From positions 1,925,001 to 1,989,000 of the forward strand of contig OY282431.1 in NCBI GenBank assembly GCA_958296035.1: a DNA stretch of 64,000 nt, read 5' to 3'. This stretch comes from Paracoccaceae bacterium. Lineage in GTDB: Bacteria > Pseudomonadota > Alphaproteobacteria > Rhodobacterales > Rhodobacteraceae. Positions 6,103 to 16,041 of the stretch are shown piece after piece (positions within the stretch are counted from its first letter, which is position 1; every line of letters starts with the position of its first letter). The position numbers were made by a program, and so were the translations under genes. Below the pieces are notes generated by a model that was given only the letters and a program-made list of their open reading frames with translations, had not been told where the DNA came from and did no database searches.

Positions 6103-8553
6103 ATGGCCAGTATACCCTCTACCGCACGCGTCGTAATCATAGGGGGAGGTGTCGTTGGCGCCTCCTGTTTGTTTCACCTGGCCAAAGCAGGCTGGACAGA
6201 CTGCCTGCTTCTTGAAAAGAACGAATTGACCGCCGGCTCTACCTGGCACTCTGCTGGAAACGTTCCGACGTTTTCGGCCAGCTGGTCAATAATGAACATG
6301 CAGCGCTATTCTGCAGAATTGTACCGTGGCCTCAGCGAGGAGGTCGATTACCCGATGAATTACCATGTCACCGGATCGGTGCGGCTGGCTCACGGCAAGA
6401 ATCGGATGAGAGAATTCGAGCGTGCTGCCGGCATGGGGCGATACCAGGGTATGGATATCGAGATCCTTGCCGCCGGTGACATTCGCAGTCGGTACCCGTT
6501 CGCTGAGATCCACGATCTTGCCGGCGCCTTGTACGATCCCTACGATGGCGACATTGATCCGGCACAACTTACCCAGGCCCTTGCCAGGGGCGCCCGCACA
6601 ATGGGTGCGAAGATTGCCCGCGCTACACCCGCTATCGGCGTCAGTCGTGATCGTGGTGAATGGGTCATATCCACGCCGAATGGCGACGTTCGTTGCGAAA
6701 TTGTGGTCAATGCCGCCGGTTATTATGCGCAGCGGGTTGGCGAGATGTTCAAGCCATTTGGAGGGCGCCGGGTTCCGATGGTTGCCATGAGCCATCAGTA
6801 CATGTTGACCGATCAAATAGACGAACTGGAAGACTGGACCCGTGCGAATGGAAGAAAACTGCCCATCTTGCGTGATGTCGACATTTCCTACTACTTGCGC
6901 CAGGACAAATTCGGTCTCAATCTGGGCCCATATGAGGCCGATTGCCGGGCCCACTGGGTTGAGCCACAGGATCCGCTTCCGGAAGACTTTTCGTTCCAGC
7001 TTTTCGAGGACGATCTTGAACGCCTGGAATGGTACATCGATGACGCAATGGACCGCGTTCCCCTGCTGGCCGAAGCAGGCATTTCCCGGGTTATCAACGG
7101 CCCCATACCATATGCTCCCGACGGATTGCCGCTGATCGGACCGATGCCCGGAGTTCCCAATGCATTCGAGGCTTGTGTCTTTACGTTTGGAATTGCTCAG
7201 GGAGGCGGTGCCGGAAAAGTTCTGGCCGAATGGGTAACCGAAGGCCAGACCGAATGGGACATGTGGTCCTGCGACCCGCGACGGTATACCGACTATACCG
7301 ATCATGCCTATTGCGTGGCAAAGGCCCGCGAAGTGTATGGCAACGAATATGCCATTCATTTTCCCTACCGGGAATGGCCCGACGGACGACCGAGCAAACT
7401 GTCACCGGTGCATGACCGGGTGGTTGACCTGGGCGGCCAGATGGGTGCCTACAACGGCTGGGAACGTGCCAACTGGTTTGCCGGCAGCGATGACGACACT
7501 TCGATCGATGCCTCGCTTACCTACGAAAGGTGCGGCCCGTGGGAACCTCGCATCAAGGACGAGTGTGAAGCCGTTCGCGATGCTGCAGGAGTCCTCGACC
7601 TGCCTGGATTTGCACGCTTCAAACTGTCGGGGAAGGGAGCTGCCGACTGGCTCAGCGGGCGCATGGCAGGCGCATTGCCTCGCGTCGGAAGAATGAACCT
7701 GGCCTATTTCCCCGACCACCGAGGACGCGTCCATACCGAAATGTCGGTGATGCGTTCCGATGATGACGAATTCAGGCTGATCACGGCTAGCGCAGCACAG
7801 TGGCATGACTTTGAACTTCTTTCCAACTCCCTGCCCGCCAGTGGACAACTGTCACTATCCGACCATACGAACGAAGTCTCGACCCTCATTGTCACAGGTC
7901 CTGAGTCCCGCAGCTTGCTGGCGGCCATATCGCGAGCCAATTTCGAACTGCCGTGGCTCAGCATCCAGTCGGCCATTGTTGCCGACCAGCCGGTGGAACT
8001 GGCGCGAGTCAGCTATGCCGGAGAACTCGGATGGGAAGTCCATGCCACCAACGAGCAAATGCCGGCCATCTACAATGCGATACTGGCACAGGGAGCCAAA
8101 CCCTTCGGAATGTGGGCACTTAACTCGCTGAGAATTGAAAAGGCCTACCGCGTCTGGAAGGGCGATCTGTCAACCGACTACACATTGCTGCAGAGCGGAT
8201 TGGGACGCTTCATCAAGTTTGACAAGGCACACAGCTTTCCCGGGAAGGCTGCTTTGCAGGCGGAATTCCAGGCGGGCAGCACACGAAAATTCGCGATCCT
8301 TGAGGTCGACGTCACTGAATTCGAGACCCCCTATATGTCGACCATTTGGCAGGACGACAATGTGGTTGGTGAAACCACATCCGGGGCATGGGGGTACCGC
8401 CTCAACAAATCCCTGGCCCTGGCAATACTGCGTGCTGACCTGGCGGAGCCGACGACACAGGTGGAAATCGAAATCTTTGGCCACCGATACCAGGCCAGGG
8501 TGATGGCTCCCCATGAACTCTATGATCCAATGAACGAGCGTCTCAAGGTCTGA
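6103..8553 (+). CDS. FAD-dependent dimethylglycine/sarcosine dehydrogenase-like protein with GcvT domain (copy 1)
   Basis: Predicted oxidative N-demethylase of methylated glycines (dimethylglycine or sarcosine), transferring the one-carbon unit to tetrahydrofolate. Domain order: DAO-type FAD domain from residue about 8 (dinucleotide motif VVIIGGGVVGAS), FAO_M middle segment (about 370-430), GcvT folate-binding domain (about 430-700) and GcvT C-terminal barrel (about 720-816). His49 in GSTWHSAGN matches the position that carries covalent FAD in dimethylglycine dehydrogenase. 816 aa is the usual size. The start lacks a strong Shine-Dalgarno sequence. Copy 2 follows after 43 bp, so they likely form an operon. 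The exact substrate (dimethylglycine, sarcosine or another N-methyl compound) cannot be decided from sequence reading. Confidence 0.88.
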   Translation: MASIPSTARVVIIGGGVVGASCLFHLAKAGWTDCLLLEKNELTAGSTWHSAGNVPTFSASWSIMNMQRYSAELYRGLSEEVDYPMNYHVTGSVRLAHGKNRMREFERAAGMGRYQGMDIEILAAGDIRSRYPFAEIHDLAGALYDPYDGDIDPAQLTQALARGARTMGAKIARATPAIGVSRDRGEWVISTPNGDVRCEIVVNAAGYYAQRVGEMFKPFGGRRVPMVAMSHQYMLTDQIDELEDWTRANGRKLPILRDVDISYYLRQDKFGLNLGPYEADCRAHWVEPQDPLPEDFSFQLFEDDLERLEWYIDDAMDRVPLLAEAGISRVINGPIPYAPDGLPLIGPMPGVPNAFEACVFTFGIAQGGGAGKVLAEWVTEGQTEWDMWSCDPRRYTDYTDHAYCVAKAREVYGNEYAIHFPYREWPDGRPSKLSPVHDRVVDLGGQMGAYNGWERANWFAGSDDDTSIDASLTYERCGPWEPRIKDECEAVRDAAGVLDLPGFARFKLSGKGAADWLSGRMAGALPRVGRMNLAYFPDHRGRVHTEMSVMRSDDDEFRLITASAAQWHDFELLSNSLPASGQLSLSDHTNEVSTLIVTGPESRSLLAAISRANFELPWLSIQSAIVADQPVELARVSYAGELGWEVHATNEQMPAIYNAILAQGAKPFGMWALNSLRIEKAYRVWKGDLSTDYTLLQSGLGRFIKFDKAHSFPGKAALQAEFQAGSTRKFAILEVDVTEFETPYMSTIWQDDNVVGETTSGAWGYRLNKSLALAILRADLAEPTTQVEIEIFGHRYQARVMAPHELYDPMNERLKV

Positions 8554-8596: not shown

Positions 8597-11047
8597 ATGA
8601 CAGAATCCGCGATTCCGGATAGAGCCAGCGCCCTTGTAATTGGCGGCGGCGTGATAGGATGCTCTTTGGCATATCACCTTGCCAGGCTCGGTTGGAACGA
8701 TGTTGTGCTGCTGGAGCGCAAGCGCCTGACATGTGGTTCGACCTGGCATGCTGCAGGACTGATCGCGCAGTTAAGGGCAACGGCGAGCATGACCCGTCTG
8801 GCTCGCTATTCGCAGGAACTTTACGCTGGACTGGGTGCTGCGACCGGGGTCGAAACGGGGTTTGTAAGAACAGGTTCGATTTCTGTAGCCCTGACCGCGG
8901 AGCGCCAGGAAGAACTGAATCGCTCCGCTTCGATGGCGCGTGCGTTTGAAGTCGAGGTCGACGAGGTTGGACCATCGGAGATCAGCAAACTCTACCCCGA
9001 ACTCAACACTGACGGCGTTGTGTCCGGGGTCTACCTGGCCAGGGACGGACAGGGAGACCCCGCCAACATAGCACTGGCGCTTGCCAGGGGAGCGCGGCAG
9101 CGCAATGCCAGATTGCTCGAAAACGTCAAGGTTGTCGGGATCAGGCGCGACGGTAGCCGGGTGACCGGGGTTGACTGGGTTCACGGCACGGAATCAGGTC
9201 ACATGCGGGCAGAAACGGTCATTAACTGCGCCGGCATGTGGGGACGAGAAGTCGGTTTCATGGCCGGTGTATCGGTTCCACTTCAGGCCTGCGAGCACTT
9301 CTATATCGTTACCGAACCGATTGCGGGGCTTGGCCGGCGACCGGTCCTGCGTGTGCCCGACGAATGTACCTATTACAAGGAAGACGCGGGCAAGCTGCTT
9401 ATCGGTGCCTTTGAACCACAGGCCAAACCATGGGCGATTGATGGCATTCCAGAAGGGTTCGAGTTCGATCAGCTTCCCGAGGATTTCGATCATTTCGAAC
9501 CGATACTTGATGCGGCGGTAGACCGTATGCCGCTTCTCGAGAATACCGGCATTCACACATTCTTCAATGGTCCCGAGAGCTTTACACCAGACACATCCTA
9601 TTGTCTTGGTCCGGTACCGGGCCTCGAAAACTTTTACGTGGCGGCCGGCTTCAACTCGGTCGGAATACAGTCTGCAGGTGGTGCCGGCATGGCGCTGGCA
9701 CAATGGATCGAGGATGGTGAACAGCCGTTTGATCTCTTTGATGTCAACATCGCCCGCATGCAGCCATTTCAGAACAATCGTCGCTATCTGGTTGAAAGAT
9801 CACGTGAGGCACTCGGCCTCCTTTACGCCGATCACTATCCTTTCAGACAAAAGGAGACTGCTCGGGGAATCCGAAGGACACCATTCCACCAGAGCCTGCT
9901 GGAACACGGTGCGGTCATGGGTGAACTCGCTGGTTGGGAGCGAGCCAACTGGTTTGCCAGGCCGGGACAGGAAAGAACCTATCGCTATTCGTGGAAACGC
10001 CAGAACTGGTTTGACAACTGGCGAGAGGAGCACCTTGCCGTACGCCGCAATATCGGCCTCTATGACATGTCCTCGTTTGGCAAGTTGCGGGTCGAGGGTA
10101 TGGACGCCGAGGCGTTTCTGAACCAGGTTTGTGGTGCCAATCTTTCGGTTCCCGTCGGCAAGATTGTGTATACCCAGTTCCTGAACTCGCGGGGTGGCAT
10201 TGAGGCCGATGTCACTGTAGCAAGACTGTCTTCCGACGCCTACCTGGTGGTTACTCCCGCAGCCACCTGCATCGCCGATCAGGCGTGGCTTAACAGGCAC
10301 AGGCGCAATTACAGCGTTGTCATCGTCGACGTCACGGCGGCCGAAGGTGTGCTGGCGGTCATGGGCCCCAATTCCCGTCGCCTTCTCCAGGATGTGTCAC
10401 CTCATGATTTTTCCAACACGGCCTTTCCGTTCGGAACCTGGCAGACGATCGAGGTCGGCATGGCTTTGGCCAGGGCACACCGGATTTCCTATGTCGGCGA
10501 GCTTGGGTGGGAGATCTATGTATCTTCAGACATGGCGATGCATGTGTTTGAGACCCTTCTGGAGGCCGGGAGCACACACGATTTACGCCTGTGCGGGTTG
10601 CACATGATGGACAGCTGCCGCAGCGAAAAGGCGTTTCGTCATTTCGGCCATGATATCTGCGCGGCTGACCATGTTCTGGAAGCCGGTCTCGGATTTGCCG
10701 TTGACATGAACAAGCCTGCCTTCATCGGTCGCGAGGCAGTCCTCGAAAAGCGTCGGACAGGCCTTGATCGAACCCTGCTGCAGTTCCAGCTCAAGGATCC
10801 GGCCCCCCTGCTCTACCATAATGAACCGATCCTGCGGGATGGCGAAATCGTCGGTTATCTGAGTTCGGGCAGTTACGGTCACTACCTCGGCAGCGCCGTT
10901 GGCCTGGGATATGTCCCGTGCCGAGGAGAAGCACGCCCACAGGTTCTGAGCTCATCCTATCAGATAGAAGTGGCTGGATCCCGCGTTGATGCCCTAGCCT
11001 CGGCAAAGCCATTGTTCGATCCTTCATCGGACCGCGTACGGGGCTGA
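8597..11047 (+). CDS. FAD-dependent dimethylglycine/sarcosine dehydrogenase-like protein with GcvT domain (copy 2)
   Basis: Paralogue of the preceding gene with the same four-part architecture and, by coincidence or constraint, the same length of 816 aa. FAD motif ALVIGGGVIGCS at residues 12-23; probable flavinylated His51 in GSTWHAAGL, which matches the classic dimethylglycine/sarcosine dehydrogenase motif more exactly than copy 1. The FAD domain closes with FYVAAGFNSVGIQSAGGAG; the linker region LAGWERANWFA is shared with copy 1 (YNGWERANWFA). The C-terminal half is GcvT-like, ending in a barrel with LSSGSYGHYLGSAVGLGYV. The sequence is clearly diverged from copy 1, so the pair probably acts on two successive or different methylated amines rather than being a recent duplication. 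Confidence 0.88.
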   Translation: MTESAIPDRASALVIGGGVIGCSLAYHLARLGWNDVVLLERKRLTCGSTWHAAGLIAQLRATASMTRLARYSQELYAGLGAATGVETGFVRTGSISVALTAERQEELNRSASMARAFEVEVDEVGPSEISKLYPELNTDGVVSGVYLARDGQGDPANIALALARGARQRNARLLENVKVVGIRRDGSRVTGVDWVHGTESGHMRAETVINCAGMWGREVGFMAGVSVPLQACEHFYIVTEPIAGLGRRPVLRVPDECTYYKEDAGKLLIGAFEPQAKPWAIDGIPEGFEFDQLPEDFDHFEPILDAAVDRMPLLENTGIHTFFNGPESFTPDTSYCLGPVPGLENFYVAAGFNSVGIQSAGGAGMALAQWIEDGEQPFDLFDVNIARMQPFQNNRRYLVERSREALGLLYADHYPFRQKETARGIRRTPFHQSLLEHGAVMGELAGWERANWFARPGQERTYRYSWKRQNWFDNWREEHLAVRRNIGLYDMSSFGKLRVEGMDAEAFLNQVCGANLSVPVGKIVYTQFLNSRGGIEADVTVARLSSDAYLVVTPAATCIADQAWLNRHRRNYSVVIVDVTAAEGVLAVMGPNSRRLLQDVSPHDFSNTAFPFGTWQTIEVGMALARAHRISYVGELGWEIYVSSDMAMHVFETLLEAGSTHDLRLCGLHMMDSCRSEKAFRHFGHDICAADHVLEAGLGFAVDMNKPAFIGREAVLEKRRTGLDRTLLQFQLKDPAPLLYHNEPILRDGEIVGYLSSGSYGHYLGSAVGLGYVPCRGEARPQVLSSSYQIEVAGSRVDALASAKPLFDPSSDRVRG

Positions 11048-11704: not shown

Positions 11705-11962
11705 AGCTCTTTAAGGGCGGCGGACACCACTGCGTGAATTGTTTTGCACCAAGGGCCTTCCCACTAGTGTTGCGTCACAGTGATTTTGACGGTTTGAAAC
11801 GTATCATTTCGAGGCCGGGAGATTACAAGGGTCAACGAGGACCCGGATACTCCGGGCCTTTCTAGGAGTGCGTTCGATGAGCAGCCAGGCACGGTCGAAT
11901 TTGAGAACCATCTGGTGGACATTTGGCGGCGTGACCTGGAAGTGTCTCTTCATATGTCGCTC
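11705..11962. other. Intergenic downstream of the large regulator gene
   Basis: No gene seen. It contains a short perfect inverted repeat cccgga-tac-tccggg at 11842-11856 followed by cctttct. Confidence 0.5.
11842..11863 (+). terminator. Possible weak hairpin terminator
   Basis: Six-bp perfect stem (cccgga/tccggg) with a 3-nt loop, followed by cctttct. The T-run is short, so this is a weak candidate and no clear gene ends just before it. Confidence 0.25.
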
Positions 11963-14209
11963 TCACGAAATTGGCGCATCCCTGCCGCTGATACCCCACC
12001 GGCTAGGCTGCACGCGAATGAGAGGGTCTCTTGGATAAATCTGTAGTGGCCCATTCACGCCCCGCTCGGGCGTAAGGCGTTTTTTTATTTCACCAGCGCT
12101 CAATGGATGTCCTGCTGCCTGAACAATCGCCACCACCGCTTTATGAATTTCAATGCGAGATTGATTGTCGGTTTCCGCAGTAGCAGCAATCCACGTCATC
12201 TTCTTTAGAGATCTTAGCTTGCTCGATCCCGCGAGTACGATTTCAAGCAAATACTTATCGAGGTTTTCAATACGACCACCCATTCGGTCCGATGTTTCCA
12301 AGAGAATTTCGGAGGTGTGCCACTGTCTGCTGGACGCTTCCGAGTAAACGATCGCCTCGGCCTCAATGCGGATCTGGGACATTTGCACGTCGGATATAGG
12401 CAAATGGCATGCAATCCCGTATGTACCACGCGCAACGAGGTAACCAACTTCTTGAGCAGCTCTGTGCACTGTTGCCAAACGCAGGTTTTTCCCAGCTCTA
12501 GAGTTCACGCGTCTGGCGATTTCCTTAAAGTGCAGCGGCGAATCAGATTCCGCGAGAATCGCTCTTACGAGTTGATCTGTACCGCGACCGTAACCCGTGA
12601 GAACGCGCGATCCATCCTGAGCTCTACGGAAGTGGCAAATGCGCGACGACTCTTCCCACAATACCCGCCCAAATTCACTTGCAGTGTCCGGTAGCAATCC
12701 GTGCACGAGTAAGCGAGCGTTTTCTTCACTCCATTCCAGTCCTACCCCTGATGACAACAGCTCAGCTGCCTCGGAAATCGTACTCTCCCAAGCCTTTTTG
12801 GTTATCAAGCTAAAGTAGTCAAGGTTATCTATACGGATCACATTTATGCGGTCATTGCCTTGAACATTAACCAAATTTCGGAAAAAAGTCAGATGTGATG
12901 ACACACCGTCGAACCATTTGTCTACGGCATCTACACCCGCAACCGGCAATGGGTATTCTCGACCGATAACAAGCCGGGAGACTTTCCGCTCGAGAATGTC
13001 GTCCCAAGTAGACATGCGCTTCCACTTCTCGACCGCTCTGGCAGCTATCTGCCGTATACGCTCGCGTGACACTCCATGCCTTTCAGCAAGATTCTGCAGC
13101 GTTTGCTGTGATGTTTCGAAACCTAGTCGGCGAACTAAAACGTCGCGTTCACGGTCTTCCAATGATAACAGAGTCCTTCGAAAATCAGCCAGCAGAGATC
13201 TGCACTGCGGAATGGGTTCTGCCGAGGCAGCACGAGGCGGTCCTTCGTTGAGGGCGGCCAGGAGCGCGTGAACGGTATCGATTAGGGACTGTTGCCCGTA
13301 GTTCGGTTGGCTCAACAGTGTTGCGCCGGACCAGTCGGCAAGATCACGTACAGTCTTGATATTAATTCTTCTGAAGACATTTCTAGGCCGCACCGGCAGC
13401 AGTATCGAGGTGATCTCCCGCTCGGCCAGCCACGGAGGTGCGGCCTGGGCAAGTTTGCAGGGGTCTGTACAGTTGGCACCTGCAAGATAATGAGCCCGAA
13501 ACCGGCCGCTACGGCCTCGGACACTTCCTTTCAGTTCTGCTTCCCGATCAAGATAAGTGGCTTCGTCAAGTATTCCTTGTGCAGATAGCTCCTCTGCGTC
13601 CGAAGGATTCTCTTTCAGAAAAGATGTTATCCAGCTACGTGACTCTAAGTTCACGATATGTTTACCGTGCAAAGGCCAATGTTCCAATTGTCGAGAACTG
13701 GGCTTTGGAATAGTTACAACCGATGCAGCACGAGGCGGACCTTCTTTGAGGGCGGCAGTGAGCGCGTGCAAGGTATCGTTTATGGACTGTCGCCCGAAGT
13801 ACGGTTGGCGTAACAGTGCTACAATGGACCAGTCGGCAAGATCACGTACAGTCTTGATATTAATGCTTCTGAAGAATTTTCTAGGCCGCGCCGGCAGCAA
13901 TATCGAGGTGATCTCCCGCTCGGCCAGCCACGGAGGTGCGGCCTGGGCAAGTTTGCAGGGGTCTGTACAGTTGGCTCCTGCAAGATAATGAGCCCGAAAC
14001 CGGCCGCTACGGCCTCGGACACTTCCTTTCAGTTCTGCTTCCCGATCAAGATAAGTGGCTTCGTCAAGTATTCCTTGTGCAGATAGCTCCTCTGCGTCCG
14101 AAGGATTCTCTTTCAGAAAAGATGTTATCCAGCCCTGCGGCCTTTGGGTCACGGAGTCCGGTTGCAGCGGTTCAACGTGATCGGTTCGCACTGTTGGGTC
14201 TTCGAGCAC
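11963..14209 (-). CDS. Large multi-HTH protein: two alpha-CTD-like modules, sigma-70 region 4, HARE-HTH-like winged helices
   Basis: No whole-protein family recognised. Seen in the 748 aa: a tandem repeat (residues 27-160 and 193-326, offset exactly 166), each unit ending in a helix-hairpin-helix segment like the RNA polymerase alpha C-terminal domain (NIKTVRDLADW, then QPYFGRQSI or QPNYGQQSL; Arg108 and Gly139 sit where E. coli alpha has Arg265 and Gly296). Then a sigma-70 region 4 helix-turn-helix at about 343-398 (LSLEDRERDVLVRRLGFE, HGVSRERIRQIAARAVEKW). After a linker come two winged-helix segments of HARE-HTH type (about 545-600, LHFKEIARRV; about 688-740, LSAGEIKKRL). There is no sigma region 2 or 3, so it is not a complete sigma factor. 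The start is GTG with AGGG upstream, last gene of a three-gene unit. By eye AT-richer than neighbours. Role: inferred DNA-binding or transcription-machinery-associated regulator. Confidence 0.75.
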   Translation of the reverse strand: MLEDPTVRTDHVEPLQPDSVTQRPQGWITSFLKENPSDAEELSAQGILDEATYLDREAELKGSVRGRSGRFRAHYLAGANCTDPCKLAQAAPPWLAEREITSILLPARPRKFFRSINIKTVRDLADWSIVALLRQPYFGRQSINDTLHALTAALKEGPPRAASVVTIPKPSSRQLEHWPLHGKHIVNLESRSWITSFLKENPSDAEELSAQGILDEATYLDREAELKGSVRGRSGRFRAHYLAGANCTDPCKLAQAAPPWLAEREITSILLPVRPRNVFRRINIKTVRDLADWSGATLLSQPNYGQQSLIDTVHALLAALNEGPPRAASAEPIPQCRSLLADFRRTLLSLEDRERDVLVRRLGFETSQQTLQNLAERHGVSRERIRQIAARAVEKWKRMSTWDDILERKVSRLVIGREYPLPVAGVDAVDKWFDGVSSHLTFFRNLVNVQGNDRINVIRIDNLDYFSLITKKAWESTISEAAELLSSGVGLEWSEENARLLVHGLLPDTASEFGRVLWEESSRICHFRRAQDGSRVLTGYGRGTDQLVRAILAESDSPLHFKEIARRVNSRAGKNLRLATVHRAAQEVGYLVARGTYGIACHLPISDVQMSQIRIEAEAIVYSEASSRQWHTSEILLETSDRMGGRIENLDKYLLEIVLAGSSKLRSLKKMTWIAATAETDNQSRIEIHKAVVAIVQAAGHPLSAGEIKKRLTPERGVNGPLQIYPRDPLIRVQPSRWGISGRDAPIS
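13226..13636 (-). repeat. In-frame tandem duplication inside the large regulator, copy 1
   Basis: Matches 13724-14134 at an offset of 498 bp (166 codons). The part from about 13400 to 13636 has only about two differences from the other copy, while 13226-13400 is clearly diverged. Confidence 0.92.
13724..14134 (-). repeat. In-frame tandem duplication inside the large regulator, copy 2
   Basis: Partner of 13226-13636. It encodes the first (N-terminal) repeat unit, residues about 26-161 of the protein. Confidence 0.92.
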
Positions 14210-14215
14210 GTATCC

Positions 14216-14533
14216 CTACCCCTTCAACCCTACGAACACATCGGTGTTTGCCGCGACGCCAACAGCAGTTGCGGAGGCAACGAACGAATTCGGCAAGGCG
14301 TGTTTTGCTGCAGCAGTCAGCAGCACGCACCCCAGGTGGGATTTTGCGATTTGTTCAAATTCCAACAACGGAGGGCGATCAAAACCGATATGCAGCACAG
14401 CTACGTCCAAGTCCGGCTCGGTCCGCATATTCCATGAGTTCATGACTACACCCAGATCGCGGCAAACCGTGACCGACCATTTGCCACTGCTTGAACGCAA
14501 CATGAGATAGGTGCGAAGTTGGTGCGCCATCAT
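14216..14533 (-). CDS. Small protein of unknown function, middle gene of the three-gene unit
   Basis: 105 aa, not recognised. Its ATG overlaps the TGA of the upstream gene as ATGA (14533-14530), a strong sign of translational coupling and a real gene. The sequence is mixed alpha/beta without membrane segments: MRTEPDLDVAVLHIGF, then CVLLTAAAKHALP. It ends in TAG at 14218-14216. Two codons later, in the same frame, the GTG start of the large regulator follows, so one amber codon separates the two proteins. No function is assigned. Confidence 0.6.
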   Translation of the reverse strand: MMAHQLRTYLMLRSSSGKWSVTVCRDLGVVMNSWNMRTEPDLDVAVLHIGFDRPPLLEFEQIAKSHLGCVLLTAAAKHALPNSFVASATAVGVAANTDVFVGLKG

Positions 14534-14916
14534 GAACCGGCATCTGCCTTTTCATTGGCCTGATCAAGAAGTCCAACGAAGTTGATCGTACCGTGCTCTG
14601 CCTCTAAAGCAAGTTCGTTCACTCCCCATTCAGCAAGACGTTCGGCCATTTTGTATATTGACACATTCTGCGCACGATTGCCCAACAGCGCTACGATGGA
14701 CCGCTTAAGGAATTGGTCGGGGTCAAGCGTTCCCACATTGAAGATAGTCTTTCTCCTTTGAATTTCAGCCGGCTCTACTCCCTGCGCAAGCGCAAGTCCT
14801 ATGGCAAACCGGTATCCATCAAGTAGTTCGCGGAAGTATCTTTCCTCTTGAAGCCTCTTCAGTTTTTCGTGAGCACCTGCCGACAGCCCGATTGTGGTCG
14901 GTTCCAGTGTATTCAT
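14530..14916 (-). CDS. Small conserved-looking protein of unknown function, first gene of the three-gene unit
   Basis: 128 aa, function not recognised. The ATG at 14916 has AAGGAT 7 nt upstream. Visible features: an N-terminal helical segment (AHEKLKRLQEERYFRELLDGYRF split over residues 16-38), the phrase FNVGTLDPDQFLKRSIVALL, and a C-terminal stretch IYKMAERLAEWGVNELALE. It is soluble and acidic-helical, which could suit an adaptor or antitoxin-like partner, but that is inference only. It is the likely promoter-proximal gene of an operon with the next two genes (4-nt overlap, then a 6-nt gap). Confidence 0.65.
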   Translation of the reverse strand: MNTLEPTTIGLSAGAHEKLKRLQEERYFRELLDGYRFAIGLALAQGVEPAEIQRRKTIFNVGTLDPDQFLKRSIVALLGNRAQNVSIYKMAERLAEWGVNELALEAEHGTINFVGLLDQANEKADAGS

Positions 14917-16041
14917 ACCGTTATCCTTTCCACTTTTGACTGTGTGGAACTGATTTGCCTAATCTTGTAAACGACGCCGATCCTCTTGCAAAGCTCATAT
15001 TTACCTGGGCTTTCTTGCCTGAACTGCGGTGCTTCGCAGATTTCAGTCCCGGGCGAGGAATTACTCATCCGGTATGTCGGCATGTAAGACCAACCGCGTA
15101 CGGAGCGAGCAATTCCATGTCACTGAGCTAAGCTCTTACGGCTGGCTGCCGCCGATTTCAAGACTTGGGACAGGAGGAGCAGAGACCAGTTACCAACTTA
15201 CCTCGACCTGATGCCAGCTGCGCATACGTGTTCTGTGCCAACCGCACTGCAGTTTAGCGTACCGCCGCGTAATGGTGACTTTAGTGTCTTTTTGCCGGGG
15301 TGGAATCGAGGGGGGAAGCGCTACCATCGGCAGCTCCGTGGAGTAACACTTTGCTTACGTCTTTCGCCCTATGCCAGTGCCTCGGTTCCGGACCATAGAT
15401 CCATTTCCTCACTCCCCCTCACTTTTCAAGACCGAACGTGCGGTTTTCCCGCCTCCAGCGTCCCGATTGGACCATGCTCTTGCTCCTGGCAGAGTCTTTG
15501 TCTTCGGAATAAGGCGCAGCAAACGAAGTGTTCCCACAGTCGGTCTCTGCTCAATGGTCAAAAGGTTACAGAACAAATGATTAATTTAACTCAATTCGGG
15601 TACCTAGCGTGTCCTGCTAACGCCCGCATAACCGCCTGATCCGCAACTCTTGGATGATACTGTCCTCGCCAATCCGCACCCTGACAGTCAATAGAAGCCA
15701 AGGACATACTCGTCTGCAAGCTTACAGGCAGAGGGAGCGGGCATGGCCCGGGCCGATGCGGCCGCTATTGTCCCTTCGCCCTGCCGTGTCCCGAAGCGCG
15801 GCACACATCCTGACACAACAGCTCAAAATCATCACCAGTCCGGCAAACCGACGGCTCAGAACTACAAAGGACTCACCGGTCAGGCTGGTTCATTCTCTGC
15901 AATAGGTCCCTCATTCTGACCATTGGATGTTGATGGATCGCAAGCTGATTTCATGGAGATGACCGGCAGATTGAGGACAGGAAACGCCGAAATCCTGCTC
16001 TCGAAGCCGGGCCCGAATGATACGGTACCTTCTCAATGCAA
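14917..16041. other. Gene-poor stretch of 1.1 kb
   Basis: Open frames of up to 142 codons exist (for example 15211-15639 plus) but read as non-protein: rich in Ser/Arg/Pro/Cys, no motif, no ribosome site. The minus strand at about 15410-15470 holds a hairpin (gcgg-gaaaa-ccgc followed by acgttcggt) resembling, imperfectly, a group II intron domain V. No reverse transcriptase is present. The first bases carry the promoter region of the three-gene unit. Confidence 0.5.

Follow-up and report, generated by a model that had tools for sequence, protein, structure and literature searches.

Why would a bacterial protein carry, on a single chain, DNA-binding modules that normally sit on separate subunits of RNA polymerase? 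The question is raised by an open reading frame (ORF) on the minus strand, at positions 11963-14209 of a 64,000-nucleotide stretch of a Paracoccaceae genome, hereafter the window. An earlier note, made from the letters alone, had described its product as a 748-residue protein with two alpha-CTD-like modules, a sigma-70 region 4 and winged helices, encoded together with two small proteins, and had proposed either a transcription regulator or a protein reading DNA in a defence setting. Here, we show that what remains in this region is the 3' end of a decayed six-gene operon, a methylation-linked relative of the PbeABCD anti-virus system, with the tail of pbeC, an intact-looking pbeD and a broken sixth gene. 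Thus, the earlier finding was real but misread in scope: it concerns the relic of a methyl-Pbe system rather than a functional protein with two alpha-CTDs and a pair of partners. The object of interest is the sixth protein where it is intact, while the window copy illustrates how such an operon decays.

Domain content of the window ORF

The ORF is open and begins with GTG. Pfam matched RNA_pol_A_CTD in two stretches (E 1.6e-13) and Sigma70_r4 at residues 347-395 (positions 13025-13171, minus strand as for all features below; E 2.8e-10), both above cut-off. The alpha-CTD copies occupy residues 97-160 (13730-13921) and 263-326 (13232-13423), with the best Pfam stretch at residues 263-311. Pfam found neither sigma region 2 nor region 3, in agreement with what had been noted before, and region 4 likewise stands alone in the relatives; the alpha N-terminal assembly domain, a kinase and a NERD domain had no Pfam match in the window protein or in the scanned relatives. 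Profiles of two defence proteins also picked up this part of the ORF: PADLOC PglW matched the alpha-CTD and sigma region 4 stretch (E 9.9e-9) and PADLOC MzaA the region 4 part (E 2e-4), while the NCBIfam matches lay far under their cut-offs (MzaA, residues 329-400, E 1.9e-10, 40.2 bits against 800; PglW, 22.7 bits against 990). Judged from the sequence, the alpha-CTD and region 4 assignments are real and more than chance, and both domains were present in all 19 relatives scanned with Pfam.

The winged helices described earlier were fainter in the window, with HARE-HTH (PF05066) matching residues 550-577 below the cut-off (17.2 versus 25.9 bits, E 0.0067); the Rhodobacteraceae relative L028 scored 21.9 bits against the same cut-off. 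They nevertheless found backing in the relatives, 14 of 19 of which had a match at E ≤ 0.1 (best 4.9e-6), and the winged-helix half of the L028 model forms a row of winged-helix-like units. Together with the secondary structure of that model, the sub-threshold match places a first, HARE-HTH-like winged helix at residues 541-603 (12401-12589), followed by two more winged-helix-like units at residues 605-748 (11966-12397); about two further units of the relatives are missing here.

A broken gene and its remaining neighbours

Although the long frame is genuine, its product is only a fragment. A 105-residue ORF at 14216-14533 lies in the same frame and ends at a TAG (14216-14218), across which similarity to relatives continues; in alignments it corresponds to residues 1-105 of intact relatives and to the N-terminus of a relative on a plasmid of Aurantiacibacter atlanticus. 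This alpha/beta domain, cut off by the stop codon, is ruled out as a separate partner protein, being in frame and aligning as the N-terminus of intact relatives. At the other end, about 157 C-terminal residues are missing, the ORF stopping at the position of residue 690 in the 847-residue L028 protein.

The two alpha-CTDs stem from a tandem duplication (a 300-nt repeat at 88%, spacing 498). The copies differ at 2 positions in the first 240 bp, after which divergence climbs; the 166 codons compared hold 6 silent differences and 42 residue changes, with no alignment past codon ~140. Copy 2 shares more identities than copy 1 with each of four relatives compared, and the more degenerate copy 1 has Lys where Asn is kept in 22/22 aligned sequences. 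With a profile built from the aligned alpha-CTDs, 20 of 21 relatives were found to have a single module and one, L043 from a Methylobacter MAG, to have two. The pair is thus present in the damaged window copy but is no trait of the family. It is not unique to the window either, and since L043 also carries two, such repeats seem to arise now and then.

Directly upstream of the broken gene lies pbeD (14530-14916), the one true protein among the two small ones that had been thought to be co-encoded. Its 128-residue product is 74-75% identical to its three closest relatives, is a homologue (48%) of the 124-residue protein in the plasmid operon and had no sequence match to Pfam DndE. It was modelled with a pLDDT of 89.2, and the 15 best Foldseek rows were all DndE (TM 0.53-0.61 by query, probability 0.91-1.00), with a best E of 0.047 and none below 0.001. 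The fold is in line with the published statement that PbeD is a DndE cognate (PMC10853773). Just upstream of pbeD, at 14916-15089, is the tail of pbeC, which encodes a CxC/DndD-like ABC ATPase: tblastn aligned it with residues 618-670 of the PbeC at locus L027 of Jannaschia rubra (38% identity, E 1.5e-5), the frame and the tails of the relatives agree, and the last ~25 codons are the best conserved. The remainder of that gene is gone. Beyond this tail, PbeC had no match elsewhere in the genome from which the window comes; PbeA was not found in that genome, where three short helicase-like matches (26-31%) were the only ones, and the window contains no PbeB. The simplest history of the region is loss of the four 5' genes followed by decay, and the Pbe system of this organism is very probably dead.

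Intact operons in other bacteria

The parent operon consists of genes for a DNA methyltransferase, PbeA, PbeB, PbeC and PbeD, followed by the sigma/alpha-like protein, and is known to us from 21 genome loci, retrieved by a scan with two DndE-like sequences, and from one plasmid. As the sigma/alpha-like gene directly follows pbeD there, we take the window gene to be what is left of an additional component that belonged to a PbeABCD defence system linked to methylation. On the plasmid of A. atlanticus (L025), the relative shares 36% identity with the 748-residue protein over 93% of the query, and the order is methyltransferase (N6_N4_Mtase, 2.4e-31), helicase (PbeA, 1.6e-216, PADLOC), small protein (PF20306 Sp-DndD, that is PbeB, 3.7e-12), AAA ATPase (PbeC, 7.4e-303, PADLOC), 124-residue protein and sigma-like protein. 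This PbeA has a Helicase_C match and a PLDc_2 match under cut-off, and a Rad50_zn_hook match in its PbeC (residues 323-355) also falls below cut-off (14.9 versus 24.3 bits). An IS3-family element at 15993-17403 of L025 splits the sigma/alpha-like gene, and this copy is therefore broken too.

PbeA and PbeC were found in all of the genome loci, and PbeB and the methyltransferase in 20 each, L034 lacking a PbeB match and L043 a methyltransferase match; six of the methyltransferase genes lie downstream on the opposite strand. The sigma/alpha-like gene directly follows pbeD in 21/21 and on the plasmid, within a few bases in 20 loci and after 111 in L034 as its start is placed, an association that, with DndE-like queries taken from two systems having the gene, is partly built in and not an unbiased rate. 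It nonetheless supports the suggestion that the protein reads DNA in a defence setting. The hosts, as labelled in their records, span Alpha-, Beta- and Gammaproteobacteria, Humidesulfovibrio, Geobacter, Desulfuromonadales, a Nitrospirae MAG and a Verrucomicrobia MAG. Of the unbroken relatives, 18/20 are 823-913 residues long, with many winged helices. The methyltransferase and PbeC are split in L045, and in L046/L068 (G735), the entire operon is in many short frames, which may reflect either decay or MAG sequencing errors; G735 and L046 carry the same broken genes and were counted as one genome. The sigma/alpha-like proteins of L026 (Jiella sonneratiae) and L028 (Rhodobacteraceae MAG bin.37) are 99% identical across records labelled as different orders, an identity that points to a recent transfer or else to faulty binning.

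No relative of the 748-residue protein was found in the genome contigs scanned with it or in the viral contigs, and against 289 genomes of the class, the listed matches outside its own genome centred on region 4, as with ordinary sigma factors; later searches were therefore made by the DndE-like neighbour or the winged-helix stretch. A PbeD profile matched 3 of 385 genomes of the class (G000, G735 and G666), a winged-helix profile matched G000 and G735 among these 385 and G000 among 398 of the phylum, and the Sp-DndD family gave 2 matches in the 398, none in G000. G666 carries part of a PbeC together with a distant PbeD; the 19 kb examined there yielded no sigma-like gene. A search with PbeC gave 40 plasmid records; six were examined besides the known plasmid, and in five of the six, Pbe/Dnd-like loci occur without a sigma-like relative (E 1e-4). 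Pbe systems as a whole can thus do without the sigma/alpha-like gene.

Conserved contacts and predicted structure

Despite a mean identity of 0.49 over its whole length, the protein has kept the residues with which its namesakes touch DNA, given here in E. coli numbering. The equivalents of sigma R584, E585, R586, R588 and Q589, which read the -35 element, are identical in 22/22 sequences; those of alpha-CTD R265 and S299 are kept in 21/22 each and those of N268 and G296 in 22/22, while K298 and E302 are not kept (10/22 and 6/22). Across 17 relatives, nine preset DNA-contact columns, K298 included, have a mean identity of 0.93 compared to 0.51 for the 130 columns of both domains, a value matched by none of 100,000 random draws. 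In the face of such overall divergence, the recognition helix has stayed close to the one in primary sigma factors, which argues for a fixed, -35-like target.

Solved alpha-CTD and sigma region 4 structures superpose on the model of a relative, although in the whole-chain Foldseek search (model pTM 0.43) the E-values of the modules exceeded 0.01, and the three rows below 0.001 were all winged-helix proteins of other function. With VIA-align on the L028 model, the four top rows were sigma4-flap-tip chimeras; the VIA rows barely cover the alpha-CTD and the N-terminal domain, and absence there is uninformative. The alignment suggests that the segment after region 4 (residues 409-455, positions 12845-12985, in the window), in which an Asp, a Trp and a Phe are identical in 22/22 sequences, may be a built-in replacement for the flap tip of the polymerase. 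Such an internal stand-in would point, if anything, to a free-standing reader rather than to the mimic of, or bridge to, the polymerase that had been suggested earlier.

Relation to known systems

The operons resemble PbeABCD (CxC ABC-ATPase/DndE; PMC6459918 and PMC10853773) in having PbeA (PLD/SF2 helicase), a small PbeB, PbeC and a DndE-like PbeD in the same order, and methylase-linked Pbe loci are on record in these papers. They differ in encoding an N6/N4-type methyltransferase in place of Dnd phosphorothioation genes and in adding the alpha-CTD/sigma4/winged-helix protein after pbeD, which goes unmentioned in the accessible parts of the PbeABCD literature cited. Nor did the literature searched contain a description of a sigma/alpha-like Pbe component; one may be given in the 2020 CxC ABC ATPase paper, in the HARE-HTH paper, or in figures and supplements beyond the text searched. 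Some DndH proteins contain a sigma-related HTH (PMC10853773).

Similar proteins accompany phosphorothioate-linked Pbe operons. In Ruegeria THAF33, a 1026-residue protein with sigma region 4 (1.7e-13) and an alpha-CTD match just under the Pfam cut-off is encoded directly before pbeA, and hhalign relates it to the window-protein family (98.7% over 470 columns). By eye, this protein (L054 1596-4676, P0003) has three alpha-CTD/HhH-like repeats before region 4, one of which scored in Pfam. Pontibrevibacter has a copy 72% identical to it in the same operon place, and Rhizobium leguminosarum WSM1689 has a 764-residue sigma4 protein at the head of a Pbe-like operon beside dndBCDE; both cases were found via the sigma-like protein and are uninformative on frequency. 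These proteins share with the sixth protein the region 4, the alpha-CTD/HhH-like modules and the Pbe-type operon, but they head the operon instead of ending it and have a different N-terminus.

Looser parallels exist elsewhere. PglW of BREX type 2 is likewise a large defence protein with an alpha-CTD-like domain followed by wHTH modules; it differs in its kinase and NERD nuclease domains (PMC12839542) and in its operon. MzaA of the MZA system has sigma region 4 in common, in a different operon. Sigma-70 factors and the RNA polymerase alpha subunit share with the sixth protein the fold of region 4 and that of the alpha-CTD, along with the residues by which these touch DNA; here, however, both modules are on one chain with winged helices, without sigma region 2 or 3 and without the alpha N-terminal domain.

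Possible roles of the sixth protein

The kept promoter-reading residues suggest, at the level of sequence comparison, a defence protein whose way of reading DNA resembles that of the polymerase. We put at about 0.58 the probability that the intact sixth protein is a reader of promoter-like DNA for the methylation-linked Pbe defence complex, the window holding its decayed operon end. In such a protein, the alpha-CTD module would grip the minor groove, region 4 would read a -35-like hexamer, and the segment after region 4 would occupy its flap tip docking site, ahead of the row of winged helices, one of them HARE-like. It would pick out promoter-like sites, possibly probing their modification with its winged helices, and bring both the PbeC-PbeD ATPase complex and the helicase/nuclease PbeA to them, presumably against phages. 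A dedicated sequence reader would fit the view, set out in PMC10853773, that the ABC-ATPase/DndE pair scans DNA for targets. The mechanism of Pbe/CxC ABC-ATPase systems is disputed (PMC6459918 and PMC10853773). Reading of -35-like elements by intact relatives would mean that an immune system uses the promoter code of the cell itself to find or judge DNA, and since phages need promoters, this signal would be hard for them to erase. Pbe/CxC ABC-ATPase systems would then have a concrete target-recognition subunit to test, with a link to PglW and MzaA.

The same modules would also suit a regulator that binds the promoter of its own operon, repressing or activating it outside the defence complex. 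Promoter binding is what these modules do and the gene is always within the operon, yet 823-913 residues with many winged helices, as in 18/20 unbroken relatives, is large for a local regulator; furthermore, two weak tests, a comparison of the regions upstream of 11 operons, which yielded no common 7-mer beyond shuffles, and a count of TTGAC stretches, present in just 6/13 upstream regions, speak against it. We regard autoregulation as possible but unlikely. Phage proteins such as AsiA and Alt/ModA attack sigma region 4 or the alpha-CTD, and the sixth protein might be a sensor or decoy that they strike, thereby triggering the system. It combines the very modules that such proteins target, one of the PDB rows (4g6d) shows a phage protein bound to sigma domain 4, and the R265-equivalent Arg is kept in 21/22; the defence protein PglW, too, has an alpha-CTD-like domain ahead of wHTH modules (PMC12839542). 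Nevertheless, the best-kept residues are DNA contacts, a pattern that DNA binding accounts for with no need of a decoy, and a segment lying where the flap tip docks might keep these phage proteins out, making this role improbable.

For the window gene itself, it could be argued that a split or shortened protein still functions in a new role, having been retained with pbeD when the other genes were lost: a long open frame remains, pbeD looks intact, and region 4 and alpha-CTD copy 2 retain their key residues. The in-frame stop, the C-terminal truncation, the degenerate second copy and a genome in which pbeA and pbeC were not found make this very unlikely. A broader conjecture, which we consider doubtful, extends the promoter-reading role to other systems: methyl-Pbe, phosphorothioate-Pbe, BREX PglW and MZA might share a promoter reader made of polymerase parts (alpha-CTD and region 4), with the flap-tip imitation here freeing region 4 from the polymerase. 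Such a reader could detect either polymerase-free promoter-like DNA, as on incoming phage genomes, or a phage attack on its modules, and serve as trigger or landing site for a nuclease machine.

Several further loci were noted in passing. On a plasmid of Roseomonas sp. OT10 (L060 7089-12968), the gene for a sigma-70-like protein precedes that for a helicase-related one, next to genes for cytosine methyltransferases, Vsr and HNH; this may be a further defence locus that includes a sigma-like component. In the window, a short minus-strand frame (MKRHFQVTPPNVHQ...) begins within 11800-11965, directly after the truncated gene, and two neighbouring 816-residue ORFs at 6103-8553 and 8597-11047 resemble, by eye, FAD-dependent dehydrogenases of the sarcosine/dimethylglycine kind.
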